Assembly: GCA_900319345.1 (NCBI GenBank)
Contig: ONNZ01000017.1
Coordinates: 1-44,035, forward strand
Length of the DNA: 44,035 bases
Direction: 5' to 3'
Origin: an uncultured Eubacteriales bacterium
GTDB lineage: Bacteria > Bacillota > Clostridia > Christensenellales > CAG-138
Translations under genes and position numbers: made by a program
Shown: piece after piece, positions 1-13,445 of the stretch
Position numbering within the stretch: the stretch's first letter is position 1
How the letters are laid out: every line of letters begins with the position of its first letter
The notes under the pieces: generated by a model
Database searches by the model: none
What the model was told of the DNA's origin: nothing
Seen by the model: the letters and a program-made list of their open reading frames with translations, nothing else

Positions 1-427
1 CGGGGCCTGCAGCGGGAATCCCGGCCCAGGCGGCTGGGGCGCCATTCTGCGCTGGAACGGCCACGAGCGGGAGCTCTCCGGCGGCGAGGCGCAGACCACC
101 AACAACCGCATGGAGCTCACCGCCGTGATCCAGGGCCTGCTGGCCCTGCGGGAGAGCTGCGTGGTGGAGCTCTGGTCGGACTCCAAGTACGTCATCGACG
201 CGCTGGAAAAGGGCTGGGCCTGGGGCTGGCGCAAAAAGGGCTGGGTCAAGAGCGACAAGAAGCCCGCTCTGAACCCGGATCTCTGGGCCATGCTGCTGGA
301 TCTGACGCGGCAGCACGAGATGCACTACCACTGGGTCAAGGGTCACGCCGACAACGAATTCAATAACCGCTGTGACAAGCTGGCCCGGGAAGCCGTGCAA
401 CGGATCGTTTCGGGCCAAAAGAGCTGA
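1..427 (+). CDS. rnhA: Ribonuclease HI, 3' part (5' end outside window)
   Basis: RNase HI degrades the RNA strand of RNA-DNA hybrids in the cytoplasm. The reading frame is open from base 2, so the start codon lies upstream of the window. The first visible residues, GACSGNPGPGGWGAIL, are the conserved N-terminal strand; the first catalytic Asp, which normally precedes this Gly, lies at or just before the window edge. The catalytic Glu is in NNRMELTAV, the next Asp in WSDSKYV, the active-site His in VKGHADNEFN and the last Asp in NNRCDKLARE. The C-terminus ends shortly after this helix, which is normal for the family. It is followed by about 80 bp without a gene and then the recombinase gene on the same strand. 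Identification is secure; only the N-terminus is missing. Confidence 0.95.
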   Translation, partial: GACSGNPGPGGWGAILRWNGHERELSGGEAQTTNNRMELTAVIQGLLALRESCVVELWSDSKYVIDALEKGWAWGWRKKGWVKSDKKPALNPDLWAMLLDLTRQHEMHYHWVKGHADNEFNNRCDKLAREAVQRIVSGQKS

Positions 428-458: not shown

Positions 459-492
459 AACTATTCGTTAAACTTGTCTTTAACGAATAGTT
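459..492. repeat. Perfect 34-bp inverted repeat (14-6-14), candidate dif/XerS site
   Basis: The left arm AACTATTCGTTAAA (459-472) and right arm TTTAACGAATAGTT (479-492) are exact reverse complements around the 6-bp spacer CTTGTC. Two 11-14 bp arms around a 6-bp centre is the architecture of Xer/dif and related tyrosine-recombinase core sites. It lies 16 bp upstream of a XerS-like gene, and in streptococci and lactococci difSL sits directly upstream of xerS. It overlaps the predicted promoter of that gene, so autoregulation is possible too. An rnhA terminator is less likely, because the stem has only 3 GC pairs per arm and no clear T-run follows. Function is inferred; the repeat itself is seen. 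Confidence 0.6.
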
Positions 493-502
493 GTTTTAGA
501 AT
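474..502 (+). promoter_or_regulatory. Predicted sigma-A promoter of the xerS-like gene
   Basis: A -35 box TTGTCT (474-479) and a -10 box TAGAAT (497-502) are separated by exactly 17 bp. The -35 box lies in the centre of the 34-bp inverted repeat, so a protein bound there would block transcription. Only 6 nt (GAAGCC) separate the -10 box from the ATG at 509, which predicts a leaderless or nearly leaderless mRNA. Confidence 0.5.
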
Positions 503-508
503 GAAGCC

Positions 509-1612
509 ATGAGCGACTACCCCCTCCAACGAAAAAAAGATTACACACAGAAGCTTCGGACCGTGCTGTTGGAGCTCCCCAAATTTGCCGGTCTGTATTT
601 TCGCGCCATGGAATTGCAGACCAGCATCCTGACGCGATACGGATACGCTATAGATTTGAGAAACTTTTTCAAGTTCTGCACGGAGCAGGTGGACACCTTC
701 CAGGGCAAGTCCCCTGCCTCTCTGACGCTGGAGGACCTGGACAAGGTCACTGCCCTGGATATCGAGCTGTTTTTGGAGCACATGTCCCTCTATACGGGCG
801 ACGACGAGCGCGAACGGGAGAACAACGAGCGGGCCAAAGCGCGGAAATTGTCAGCTATACGGTCATTTTTTAAGTATTATCACCGTCAGGAGCTGATCAA
901 GAACAACCCCGCCTCCCTGGTAGATACGCCCAAGATACATGAAAAAGCCATCGTTCGGCTGGAAGCCAACGAGGTGGCCGATCTTTTGGATATCGCAGAA
1001 GCTGGCAACGGCCTTTCCGAGCGGCAAAAGCAGTATCATCAGGCCACGAAGGTCAGGGATACCGCCATTTTGACCCTGTTTTTGGGCACCGGCATCCGTA
1101 TCAGCGAGTTGGTAGGCATCGACATCGACGACGTGGACTTCGCCACGGACGCCTTCGTGGTCACCCGCAAGGGCGGCAACCAGGAGATGCTTTCCTTTGG
1201 ACCGGAGGTCCGAAACGCGCTGCTCGCCTATCTCGAGCAGCGGGAAGCCATGGAAGCCCTGCCCGGCAGCGAAAACGCCCTGTTCCTGTCCATGCAGCGC
1301 AAGCGGATCACCGCTCGGGCCGTGGAAAACCTGGTCAAGAAGTACGCCCGCATCGCCTCCCCCCTCAAGAAGATCACGCCCCATAAGCTCCGCAGCACCT
1401 ACGGCACCATGCTCTATCAGGAAAGCGGCGATATCTACCTGGTGGCGGACGTTTTGGGCCACAAGGACGTGAATACCACCCGAAAGCACTACGCCGCCAT
1501 CCAGGAGGAACGGCGGCGTCAGGCGACCAAGTATATCAAATTGCGGGAGGACCCTATTCCTCCCAGTCCAGATCGTCCGGAGAACCCGTCGAATCCCCCT
1601 GATCCACAGTGA
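509..1612 (+). CDS. xerS: XerS-like tyrosine recombinase
   Basis: This 367-residue protein is a complete tyrosine recombinase: N-terminal SAM-like core-binding domain (about residues 25-135) and a catalytic domain (about 175-340). The full catalytic set is visible: Arg197 (GTGIRISEL), Lys221 (TRKGG), His292 and Arg295 (PHKLR), His318 (LGHKD) and nucleophile Tyr328. Length, the LPKFAGLYF start, the ARKLSAIRSFFKYY helix and VRDTAILTLFLGTGIRISE resemble XerS of streptococci (about 356 residues), which alone does the job of XerC plus XerD in chromosome dimer resolution. A Pro-rich tail (about 350-367) overlaps the next gene by 59 bp on the opposite strand. No phage or transposon genes are nearby, which argues against a mobile-element integrase. 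The gene symbol is by similarity from memory. Confidence 0.75.
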   Translation: MSDYPLQRKKDYTQKLRTVLLELPKFAGLYFRAMELQTSILTRYGYAIDLRNFFKFCTEQVDTFQGKSPASLTLEDLDKVTALDIELFLEHMSLYTGDDERERENNERAKARKLSAIRSFFKYYHRQELIKNNPASLVDTPKIHEKAIVRLEANEVADLLDIAEAGNGLSERQKQYHQATKVRDTAILTLFLGTGIRISELVGIDIDDVDFATDAFVVTRKGGNQEMLSFGPEVRNALLAYLEQREAMEALPGSENALFLSMQRKRITARAVENLVKKYARIASPLKKITPHKLRSTYGTMLYQESGDIYLVADVLGHKDVNTTRKHYAAIQEERRRQATKYIKLREDPIPPSPDRPENPSNPPDPQ

Positions 1613-10444: not shown

Positions 10445-10473
10445 GACAATGATCTATTCAGGAGGGCTTGTTT

Positions 10474-11979
10474 ATGTTCTTCGACAATAAAGTGTATGCT
10501 GCCAACGTCCAGGGGGAAAAGCTGTTTTTACTGCCAAAGATGGCCAACCGCCACGGCCTCATCACCGGCGCCACCGGCACGGGCAAGACCGTGACCATGA
10601 AGGTGCTGGCGGAGAGCTTCTCCGACATGGGCGTGCCGGTATTTTTGGCGGACGTCAAGGGCGACGTGTCGGGCCTGGCTGAACCGGGGTTGGATTCGGA
10701 GGGCATGCAGAAGAGGATCGATCGGTTCGACCTCAGGGAATGCTGGAGCTACCGGGGCTACCCCGTGGCCTTCTGGGACATTTTCGGCGAGAAAGGCATC
10801 CCCGTCCGCATCAAGGTGTCGGACATGGGCCCCCTCATGTTCTCCCGTTTATTGGGGCTCACAGAGGTCCAGACGGGCATCCTCCACATCGTGTACCGGG
10901 TGGCGGACGACAACGGCTTGGAGCTCATTGATCTTAAAGACCTGCGCTCCATGCTCACCTACGTGAACGACAATCGAGCGAGCCTGGTCACCACCTACGG
11001 GAACGTGACGCCCCAAAGCATCGGCGCCATCCAGCGGGCACTGCTGCGGCTGGAGGACGAGGGCGGCAACATCTTCTTCGGCGAGCCCTCCATCTCCGTC
11101 TCCGATCTGCTGCGTTTGGATGAAAACGGCCATGGCCTGCTGAACATCCTGGACAGCACGAAGCTTATCCGCAGTCCCCTCATCTACAGCACCTTCCTCA
11201 TCTGGCTGGTGTCGGAACTGTTCGAGCGCCTGCCCGAGGTGGGCGACCCGGAGAAGCCTAAGGCGGTGTTCTTCTTCGACGAAGCCCATCTGCTCTTCCA
11301 AAACGCCCCTAAGGCCTTCCTGGAGAAGATCGTGCAGCTGGTGAAGCTGATCCGTTCCAAGGGCGTTGGCATCTATTTCGTGAGCCAAAGCCCCTCCGAT
11401 ATCCCCGGGGACGTGCTGGCCCAGCTCAGCAACCGCATCCAGCATGGACTTCGTGCTTACACCCCCTCCGAGATGAAAGCGGTGAAGGCTGCGGCCAATT
11501 CCTTCCGCCCCAATCCGAACCTGGATTCCGAGAAGGAGATCTTGAGCCTGGGCACGGGCGAAGCGCTGGTCTCCCTGCTGGACGAGAAGGGCATCCCCGC
11601 CATGGTGGAACGGGCCAACATCCTGCCGCCCCAGAGCCTGATGGGCATCGCACAGGAGGAAACCAGGGAAAGGATACTGGAAAGCGATCCCCTCTTTGCT
11701 TCCTACAAGGAGGCGGTGGACAACTATTCCGCCTATGAGAAGCTGAAGGAGGAAACGGACGCCAAGGAACAGGCGGCGCTGGCGGAGGCGGAGAAAAAGG
11801 CTGCAGAAAAGAAGGAAGCCGACCAAAAAAAGGCCGACGCCTCGAAAAAGAAGAAGCAAAGCTCTGTGGGCAAGGCCGCCAAGAAAGTGGCGAAAACAGC
11901 CACGAACTCCATCCTGAACCGAGTCGGAAGGAAGATCGGCAAGGCCATCGCCAGGGGCTTGTTCGGGAACTGGTTATGA
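10474..11979 (+). CDS. HerA-like ATPase (DUF853 family)
   Basis: This 501-residue protein matches the helicase HerA-like/DUF853 family (E. coli YjgR type), RecA-fold motor ATPases of uncertain role. Walker A is GATGTGKT near residue 30, Walker B is KAVFFFDEAHLLF near 265-275, and the C-terminal motor portion includes KGVGIYFVSQSPSDIPGDVLAQLSNRIQHGLRAY. Residues about 400-500 are a charged Ala/Lys/Glu-rich helix followed by a basic tail, possibly nucleic-acid binding. ATG at 10474 is chosen over TTG at 10468 because GGAGGG lies 7 nt before it. The stop codon overlaps the ATG of the HAD gene by 4 bp. Confidence 0.85.
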   Translation: MFFDNKVYAANVQGEKLFLLPKMANRHGLITGATGTGKTVTMKVLAESFSDMGVPVFLADVKGDVSGLAEPGLDSEGMQKRIDRFDLRECWSYRGYPVAFWDIFGEKGIPVRIKVSDMGPLMFSRLLGLTEVQTGILHIVYRVADDNGLELIDLKDLRSMLTYVNDNRASLVTTYGNVTPQSIGAIQRALLRLEDEGGNIFFGEPSISVSDLLRLDENGHGLLNILDSTKLIRSPLIYSTFLIWLVSELFERLPEVGDPEKPKAVFFFDEAHLLFQNAPKAFLEKIVQLVKLIRSKGVGIYFVSQSPSDIPGDVLAQLSNRIQHGLRAYTPSEMKAVKAAANSFRPNPNLDSEKEILSLGTGEALVSLLDEKGIPAMVERANILPPQSLMGIAQEETRERILESDPLFASYKEAVDNYSAYEKLKEETDAKEQAALAEAEKKAAEKKEADQKKADASKKKKQSSVGKAAKKVAKTATNSILNRVGRKIGKAIARGLFGNWL

Positions 11980-12726: not shown

Positions 12727-12811
12727 TTCAAGTCCTGTTTTGTTTCCCGCACCAATGAAAAAAGAGTCCATCCGGACTCTTTTTTCATTGGTGCGGGAAA
12801 CAGGACTTGAA
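12727..12811. repeat. 85-bp fold-back of the tRNA-Leu 3' end and its terminator
   Basis: The right arm (12774-12811: terminator half-stem, CCA, acceptor and T-arm of tRNA-Leu) is repeated inverted at 12727-12769, with a 4-nt loop ATCC. The arms are identical except for a 5-nt insertion (TTTTG/TTTGT) in the left arm. It looks like an inverted duplication of the gene's 3' end. Confidence 0.7.
12753..12788. terminator. Bidirectional intrinsic terminator between the HAD gene and tRNA operon
   Basis: AAAAAAGAGTCC-ATCC-GGACTCTTTTTT forms a 6-bp GC-containing stem extended by A/T tracts, giving a T6 run on both strands. It directly follows the CCA of tRNA-Leu on the - strand and can also end the + strand HAD transcript. 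Confidence 0.8.
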
Positions 12812-12875
12812 CCTGCATGAAATCGCTTTCACACGGACCTGAACCGTGCGCGTCTGCCAATTCCGCCATTCCCGC
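12789..12875 (-). tRNA. tRNA-Leu (anticodon CAG)
   Basis: The - strand folds into a class II tRNA: acceptor GCGGGAA/TTCCCGC, anticodon arm CACGG-TTCAGGT-CCGTG with CAG, a variable arm, T-arm with GGTTCAAGTCC, and encoded CCA. It is the last of seven tRNA genes, directly before the terminator. Copies of both its 3' and 5' ends occur next to it. Confidence 0.92.
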
Positions 12876-12900
12876 ATATAATTCCGCCATTCCCGCATAT
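12859..12900 (-). repeat. 21-bp tandem duplication of the tRNA-Leu 5' end
   Basis: Bases 12859-12879 and 12880-12900 are identical 21-bp units containing the first 17 bases of tRNA-Leu plus the ATAT leader. The upstream copy cannot form a tRNA and lies in the Tyr-Leu spacer, so it could compete as an RNase P or folding decoy. Seen directly; the effect is inferred. Confidence 0.85.
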
Positions 12901-12901
12901 T

Positions 12902-12986
<85 letters not shown>

Positions 12987-13007
12987 AAGTATAAAGCTGT
13001 CAAGGTT

Positions 13008-13082
13008 TGGAGCTGGTGAAAGGAGTCGAACCTTCAACCTACTGATTACAAATCAGTTGCTCTGCCATTGAGCTACACCAGC
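13008..13082 (-). tRNA. tRNA-Thr (anticodon TGT)
   Basis: Acceptor GCTGGTG/CACCAGC, D-arm GCTCAATGGCAGAGC, anticodon arm CTGAT-TTGTAAT-CAG with TGT, T-loop GGTTCGACTCC and encoded CCA. Confidence 0.93.
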
Positions 13083-13111
13083 AAGCTGGTGAGCCGATCT
13101 CTCGGAGAAAA

Positions 13112-13188
13112 TGGCGACCCGGAGGGGGCTCGAACCCCTGACCTCCAGCGTGACAGGCTGGCGTACTAACCAACTGTACTACCGGGCC
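13112..13188 (-). tRNA. tRNA-Asp (anticodon GTC)
   Basis: Acceptor GGCCCGG/CCGGGTC with one G-U pair, anticodon arm CCAGC-CTGTCAC-GCTGG with GTC, T-loop GGTTCGAGCCC, discriminator G73 as required for Asp, and encoded CCA. Confidence 0.94.
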
Positions 13189-13191
13189 GCG

Positions 13192-13268
13192 TGGTGGGCC
13201 TTCAGGGACTTGAACCCCGGACCGATCGGTTATGAGCCGACTGCTCTGACCAACTGAGCTAAAGGCCC
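13192..13268 (-). tRNA. tRNA with CAT anticodon (Met elongator or Ile2)
   Basis: Acceptor GGGCCTT/AAGGCCC, D-arm GCTCAGTTGGTCAGAGC, anticodon arm TCGG-CTCATAA-CCGA with CAT, and encoded ACCA. It lacks the unpaired 1-72 position of initiator tRNA. The loop CTCATAA occurs in both elongator Met and lysidine-modified Ile2 tRNAs, and the sequence does not settle which it is. Confidence 0.85.
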
Positions 13269-13288
13269 AATCAATTCCCAGAAGGAAA

Positions 13289-13363
13289 TGGTGACCCCGA
13301 GGAGAATCGAACTCCTGTTACCGCCGTGAAAGGGCGATGTCTTAACCGCTTGACCACGGGGCC
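13289..13363 (-). tRNA. tRNA-Glu (anticodon TTC)
   Basis: Acceptor GGCCCCG/CGGGGTC with one G-U pair, anticodon arm TCGCC-CTTTCAC-GGCGG with TTC, T-loop AGTTCGATTCT and encoded ACCA. Confidence 0.93.
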
Positions 13364-13368
13364 ACACC

Positions 13369-13445
13369 TGGTCGGGGTGAGAGGATTTGAACCTCCGGCC
13401 CCATGCTCCCAAAGCACGTGCGCTACCGGACTGCGCCACACCCCG
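13369..13445 (-). tRNA. tRNA-Pro (anticodon TGG)
   Basis: Acceptor CGGGGTG/CACCCCG, D-arm GCGCAGTCCGGTAGCGC, anticodon arm CGTGC-TTTGGGA-GCATG with TGG, T-loop GGTTCAAATCC and encoded ACCA. It is the first gene of the tRNA operon. Confidence 0.94.

Follow-up and report, generated by a model that had tools for sequence, protein, structure and literature searches.

Positions 459 to 1612 of the window, which is the whole stretch of 44,035 nucleotides analysed here, can be read as an Xer/dif module in which chromosome dimers would be resolved by one recombinase in place of the usual two enzymes; judging from the sequence, we give this reading a probability of about 0.88. An earlier note on this DNA had proposed that a dif module with its own single recombinase exists here, outside the classical hosts of XerS, and this proposal is supported by the co-occurrence of gene and site, the single site per genome, the location of the site at the skew terminus in most of the relatives examined, and the absence of any XerD above the curated cut-off. 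The features of the window are given below.

Positions 459–492: dif-type site, two 14-bp inverted arms with a 6-bp spacer; arms exact, covariance match of 57.3 bits.
Positions 459–472: left arm, AACTATTCGTTAAA.
Positions 473–478, plus strand: spacer CTTGTC, asymmetric; proposed crossover region that would give the direction.
Positions 479–492: right arm, TTTAACGAATAGTT.
Positions 474–479, plus strand: −35 box TTGTCT, overlapping the spacer by five of its six bases and reaching one base into the right arm.
Positions 497–502, plus strand: −10 box TAGAAT, 17 bp from the −35 box.
Positions 509–1612, plus strand: Xer-type tyrosine recombinase, 367 amino acids, complete open reading frame.
Positions 2–427, plus strand: end of rnhA (ribonuclease HI; NCBIfam PRK00203 above cut-off), the upstream neighbour outside the module.

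The exact 14-6-14 inverted repeat ahead of a complete tyrosine recombinase gene, described in the earlier note, is present as stated there, with exact arms and an open reading frame of 367 amino acids. The TTGTCT-17-TAGAAT promoter with its −35 box in the spacer was likewise read at positions 474–502, where the last base of the −35 box falls in the right arm. The ATG of the recombinase lies 16 bp past the end of the repeat, and the genes miaA, mutL, mutS and miaB follow downstream on the opposite strand. With up to three mismatches allowed, the site occurs at one place in the window and at one place in the window's own assembly (68 contigs totalling 2.14 Mb, with a completeness of 90%), where the covariance model likewise finds a single place, and it was matched by none of 100 dinucleotide shuffles. 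Because the −10 box ends 6 bases ahead of the ATG (positions 497–511), the mRNA in the window's genus may be leaderless; the orthologues of other genera have a longer leader, many of them with a GGAGG-like ribosome site. Elsewhere in the window, seven clustered tRNA genes lie at positions 12789–13445 on the minus strand, and a 503-residue open reading frame at positions 10468–11979 has a weak, sub-cut-off match to the DNA-translocating ATPase CedD.

The gene and the site were followed through 61 genomes, consisting of the window's own genome and 60 relatives. Matches to the recombinase were obtained in 56 genomes, and one of them (G054, with a match of 26% identity) was set aside, which leaves 55 with an orthologue. 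With a strict pattern, the site is detected in 30 of the 61 genomes, once in each. A covariance model of the site, built from 39 variants taken partly from the same genomes that were searched, finds it in 53 of the 61, at a single place in 52 of these; the remaining one, G056, has a second, weak place. The site is present in 53 of the 55 gene-bearing genomes and in none of the six that lack the gene (Fisher p 5e-7). A lack of conservation of the repeat near orthologous genes, which the earlier note had held to speak against the module, was not encountered. Because the model was built partly from them, matches in the source genomes come as no surprise; its construction does not, however, dictate that each genome has one place only or that genomes lacking the gene lack the site as well. 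The two gene-bearing genomes with no model match are G048, where the gene is in two pieces, and G057, where a diverged repeat is visible upstream. The six genomes lacking both gene and site include four that are 70–80% complete, together with G043 and G054, which are 95–97% complete. G043 (95% complete) also gave no match to the XerD model, and G054 has a XerD-like protein at 207 bits; loss and replacement of the module are possible in these two.

In all 51 genomes that have both on the same contig, the site precedes the gene; the two are no more than 200 bp apart in 43 and no more than 1.3 kb apart in 50, the distance mostly ranging from 16 bp to more than 1 kb. The exception is G038, where 53.7 kb separate the site from the gene. 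Site and gene are on separate contigs in G031 and G053, the latter having a second, partial copy of the gene. The same spacer, CTTGTC, is found in many relatives of the window's family. In a filtered survey, 22 rows initially appeared without a site. When these were rechecked, a site was seen in other searches for four (L011, L037, L025 and L175), the site of the genome was farther off or on another contig for L021/L173, L033/L174, L149, L156, L162 and L170, and L060 has its site at position 236. Four further rows (L082, L084, L085 and L086; 29–33% identity) are not orthologues, and no site was found for L059, L062, L065, L073 and L171 among the 22.

The symmetry of the arms is kept as their sequence changes. 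In a set of 39 distinct sites, complementary bases occupy 518 of the 546 mirrored cells, compared with a mean of 440 and a maximum of 459 in 1000 shuffles; as the sites are related by descent, this count is not to be read as a probability. Changes in one arm are paired with changes in the other, as in CTCTTCG/CGAAGAG for CTATTCG/CGAATAG and CGCAAAA/TTTTGCG for CGTTAAA/TTTAACG. On these sequence comparisons, the arm symmetry appears to be under selection.

The Xer complement of these genomes is consistent with a single enzyme. The window's own assembly, at 90% completeness, contains PF00589 at three places, of which one is Xer-type, and a search of it for a second Xer found none. The other two places (L002 and L003, on contigs C39 and C17) are integrase-like and of the mobile-element type, and each of these genes is seemingly split over two frames, as judged by reading. 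The earlier note had held that canonical xerC and xerD together with a separate dif would speak against the module; a XerD above the curated cut-off was found in none of the 61 genomes, and XerD-like proteins with sub-cut-off scores of 207–280 bits occur in G040, G044 and G054. The same model is passed by 6 of 19 other Bacillota genomes and in 4 of 14 named control genomes, and it is not passed by two XerS-bearing genomes of family f156. FtsK with a gamma domain is encoded in the window's own genome and in 58 of the 61 genomes overall.

The position of the site relative to the replication terminus was determined in ten relatives with long contigs, where the terminus was taken as the maximum of the cumulative GC skew. 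The maxima were sought in stretches of 60–140 kb around the gene, except in G038, for which the whole contig was used; because the stretches were chosen around the gene, the independence of the following positions is limited.

G005: GC-skew maximum at 70503, site start at 70876.
G012: GC-skew maximum at 183517, site start at 183324.
G037: GC-skew maximum at 125344, site start at 126086.
G050: GC-skew maximum at 131793, site start at 131836.
G030: GC-skew maximum at 197690, site start at 198578.
G024: GC-skew maximum at 140094, site start at 137020.
G044: GC-skew maximum at 190078, site start at 193815.
G035: GC-skew maximum at 205540, site start at 211338; weak skew.
G038: GC maximum at 50453, AT and combined maximum at 64195, site start at 64304; gene at 118031.
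G007: no GC turning point; AT maximum at 157888, site at 158991.

In eight of the ten contigs, no more than 6 kb separate the GC-skew maximum from the site, and in five no more than 1 kb. For G007, the AT skew peaks 1.1 kb away from the site. The clearest case is G038, in which the AT and combined skews turn 109 bp from the site and not at the gene, which lies at 118031; the GC maximum of this contig is 13.9 kb from the site. Farther out, the sign of the skew is mostly kept in the sampled stretches of G005, G012, G037, G044, G050, G024 and G030. The window opens its contig, which leaves 458 bp ahead of the site, and the terminus position is taken from the relatives; GC skew is negative in 19 of the 22 two-kb blocks of the window, the sign that these relatives show beyond the terminus. 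The earlier note had associated dif with the skew minimum, which needs correction, as the terminus corresponds to the cumulative-skew maximum in the relatives.

The residues R197, K221, H292, R295, H318 and Y328 of the recombinase are unchanged in 27 of 27 aligned relatives, and their assignment as the catalytic R-K-H-R-H/W-Y set follows the family pattern given in the accessible part of PMC5357621. The structure model of the protein has a mean pLDDT of 81.5 and a pTM of 0.56. Its best fold matches in the PDB include XerA, XerD and XerH, with query TM-scores of at most 0.45; because these overall scores are low, the matches back the fold class only. The recombinase-like phage repressors MrpR and SroF are also among the fold matches, and Cre is a distant one (E about 1e-4).

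A −10 box at 16–18 bp from a −35 box in the spacer is present at 32 of 40 sites, compared with a mean of 2.3 and a maximum of 8 in 500 shuffles; these are sites in the orientation of the window from relatives of at least 57% identity, and close relatives inflate the count. The overlap was found at 2 of 11 sites in more distant relatives and at 2 of 9 flipped sites, several of which have, by eye, a promoter-like pair just downstream. Because of these two low counts, the promoter overlap is placed outside the core mechanism; close to the window it is a genuine feature, but the module can do without it. Within the window's family, an enzyme bound to the site would also mask the −35 box of its own gene and thereby limit its expression, an effect to which we would give slightly less than even odds.

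This overlap bears on the reading that competes best with the module, in which the repeat is an operator only, bound by the recombinase or another regulator in the manner of MrpR and SroF, with no crossover. The promoter that the repeat overlaps is conserved in the window's family, and the presence of those two repressors among the fold matches points the same way. However, the overlap is missing at seven of the nine flipped sites, and the gap between site and gene is anything from 16 bp to more than 1 kb and reaches 54 kb in G038, while G031 and G053 have the two on different contigs. A position at the terminus is not required of an operator, yet the site of G038 marks the turning point of the AT and combined skews, and the catalytic residues are invariant. 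We therefore consider an operator without recombination improbable.

The earlier note had called the enzyme XerS-like. XerS is the top NCBIfam model, although its score of 191.5 bits is below the cut-off of 267; the XerC and XerD models are not passed either (176.9 bits against 335.15 and 161 bits against 329.6). The recombinase is 25–32% identical to the XerS rows and 25–37% identical to the XerC/D-like rows. In an unrooted tree of 81 rows, which was computed without XerH or XerL rows, the 19 XerS rows form a branch of their own (support 100/99) and 25 XerC/D rows form another (99/92). A third branch (97/85) unites 30 window-type rows with three of the same class and four long-branched others, and the XerS rows lie on its far side from the window rows. 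Christensenella hongkongensis (L057) and several Lachnospiraceae are placed among the window-type rows, which makes Christensenellales the probable order. The enzyme is, on its sequence, best classed as a Xer-type recombinase and not as XerS, and the XerS-like identity is given up. A member of XerS that had spread into this order with a variant difSL would account for the equal size, the equal layout of gene and site and the best NCBIfam model, and the unrooted tree leaves room for a sister relation. The score under the cut-off, the low identity and the separate XerS branch speak against such a spread, as does a site sequence unlike difSL, the difSL pattern itself being found upstream at 3 of 13 XerS loci checked. 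This origin appears even less probable than the operator.

That the protein is the integrase of a mobile element and the repeat its attachment site is very improbable: integration is a common role of tyrosine recombinases and the arm motif is present in viral contigs, as described below, but there is one orthologue in 55 of the 61 genomes, the site occurs once in 52 of the 53 genomes that have it and is positioned at the skew terminus, and the neighbours rnhA, miaA, mutL, mutS and miaB are housekeeping genes. Equally improbable is an origin of the repeat by chance or as the terminator of rnhA, in favour of which its place just after that gene could be cited, in view of the shuffles, the conservation with paired changes and the AT-rich arms; a chance repeat is refuted by the conservation in 53 of the 55 gene-bearing genomes.

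In the one-enzyme dif module, each of the two identical arms would be occupied by one monomer, and the pairing of two sites would assemble the enzyme into a tetramer. Cuts would be made by Y328 where arm and spacer meet, and strands exchanged twice across the 6-bp spacer would separate a chromosome dimer into monomers. With both arms the same, the direction and the order of the strands would have to come from the asymmetric spacer, the flanking DNA or FtsK, and FtsK with its gamma domain probably activates the reaction at the septum.

Outside the relatives, the site model gives matches with E of at most 0.001 in 6 of 249 Bacillota genomes (the window's own, G063, G099, G177, G262 and G288). 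In G099 and G177, the site lies just upstream of a Xer-like gene, and each genome has four matches to the XerD model, none of them above the cut-off. Exact 14-6-14 palindromes were also seen upstream of Xer-like genes of other Bacillota (L432, L433, also as L126 and L128, and L144), with AAAA/TTTT inner ends and different outer arms. The arm ATAACTTCGCAAAA at L432:1501–1534 has its first nine bases in common with the loxP arm, by chance or by kinship.

The motif CTATTCGNNAAAN6TTTNNCGAATAG occurs in at least 120 viral stretches (IMG/VR contigs, L269–L388), and the reversed motif used as a control occurs in none; the stricter window-type arms are found in 8. The sites in these at least 120 stretches have varied spacers and often unequal inner bases, and they are mostly intergenic and often beside terminase genes; no second such site was found in any viral stretch examined among the matches listed. 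Among the matches listed, the site is within 1.3 kb of the largest terminase cluster in 35 of 36 stretches, within 1.5 kb of a second terminase cluster in 16 of 26, and within 501 bp of a small-subunit terminase cluster in 22 of 25, where each cluster was named from one representative. A PF00589 protein, that is, an integrase of their own, is present in 11 of 20 larger viral records chosen from the at least 120, and because of this the reading of the sites as attP of integrase-less phages was dropped. A motor-only FtsK/SpoIIIE-like protein of about 250 amino acids lies 0.2–3 kb from the site in L375 (2103–2888) and in 11 more viral contigs, and is possibly a phage activator of the host recombinase.

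The recombinase protein (P0001) used as a query against the viral contigs found no relative. A tblastn search of 90 of the at least 120 viral loci gave four window-type proteins. L272, L324, L325 and L329 are small contigs of isolate genomes with a window-type recombinase of 52–54% identity less than 1 kb from the site, and L272 and L324 also hold a replication initiator; perhaps they are small elements integrated at the host dif. A blastn search of the 34-mer against named phages gave four records, three of them at E 1 or worse; the fourth, from a human fecal phage (MT835477.1:26211–26244), matches over all 34 bases at 88% (E 7e-4). The protein search against plasmids gave 2756 records, all below 60% identity; the ten matches listed are at 28–35%.

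In phage P1, lox lies near pac. The placement of the viral sites beside packaging genes recalls this arrangement, which may serve as a lead. A wider picture could then be drawn, speculative and on balance doubtful, in which a further one-enzyme type with fully symmetric sites of loxP geometry replaces XerCD in most of the order and part of the Lachnospiraceae, and in which the host-type site is found by the packaging genes of tailed phages from these habitats, so that the host enzyme, and not a phage Cre, would circularise or resolve their DNA as in P1 lox/pac.

Few one-enzyme dif systems are known, and the present one would add a further clade, with fully symmetric sites, that spans an order of the gut and rumen. 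The clade is named in none of the titles and abstract openings listed by the literature searches, which covered open-licence PMC papers, and the data of a broad survey such as PMC8138268 may include its proteins. Natural separations of gene and site exist in G038 and, by contig, in G031 and G053, and the setting of strand order with identical arms and identical monomers becomes testable. In draft genomes of these bacteria, most of them uncultured, the site can serve to locate the terminus from sequence, and the enzyme and its site are a possible compact Cre-like tool.

The known single-enzyme systems, as far as the accessible parts of PMC5357621, PMC2731167 and PMC9765430 describe them, are XerS, XerH, archaeal XerA and XerL. 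XerS/difSL of streptococci and lactococci resembles the present module in having one recombinase of about 360 amino acids, a site beside the gene at the terminus and A/T-rich inner arm ends (accessible part of PMC5357621). According to the same text, difSL has 31 bp with imperfect arms and an 11-bp centre, whereas the window site has 34 bp with exact arms and a 6-bp spacer, and XerS belongs to a separate clade with 25–32% identity to the window enzyme. XerL/dif of Legionella and Coxiella also combines a single recombinase with uninterrupted inverted-repeat arms, described in the available text of PMC9765430 as 10 and 12 bp long, compared with 14 bp here; the comparison is one of descriptions. 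The earlier note had regarded the perfect symmetry as unlike known dif sites, but the XerL sites are a precedent (PMC9765430, as far as accessible), and because their arms are already uninterrupted, symmetry alone is not new. The Legionella xerL gene lies more than 400 kb from dif by the same partial source (PMC9765430), whereas the window-type gene usually adjoins its site. XerH/difH of Campylobacter and Helicobacter shares the single recombinase, often adjoining its site, and the hexanucleotide centre (accessible parts of PMC5357621 and PMC2731167); it differs in that the profile match of the window enzyme to XerH (5jjv, 5.4e-12) is weaker than that to XerD (1a0p, 6.6e-31). With XerC/XerD/dif, the module shares the Xer fold, the presumed role and the presence of the FtsK gamma domain; unlike that system, it has one enzyme and identical arms, and the XerD cut-off is passed in 0 of the 61 genomes. 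Cre/loxP of phage P1 is alike in having one enzyme and a 34-bp site with perfect arms. The cleavage points of loxP are 6 bp apart, which makes its geometry 14-6-14 as well. The window site differs from loxP in being chromosomal and, in relatives, located at the terminus, and the fold match of its enzyme to Cre is distant.
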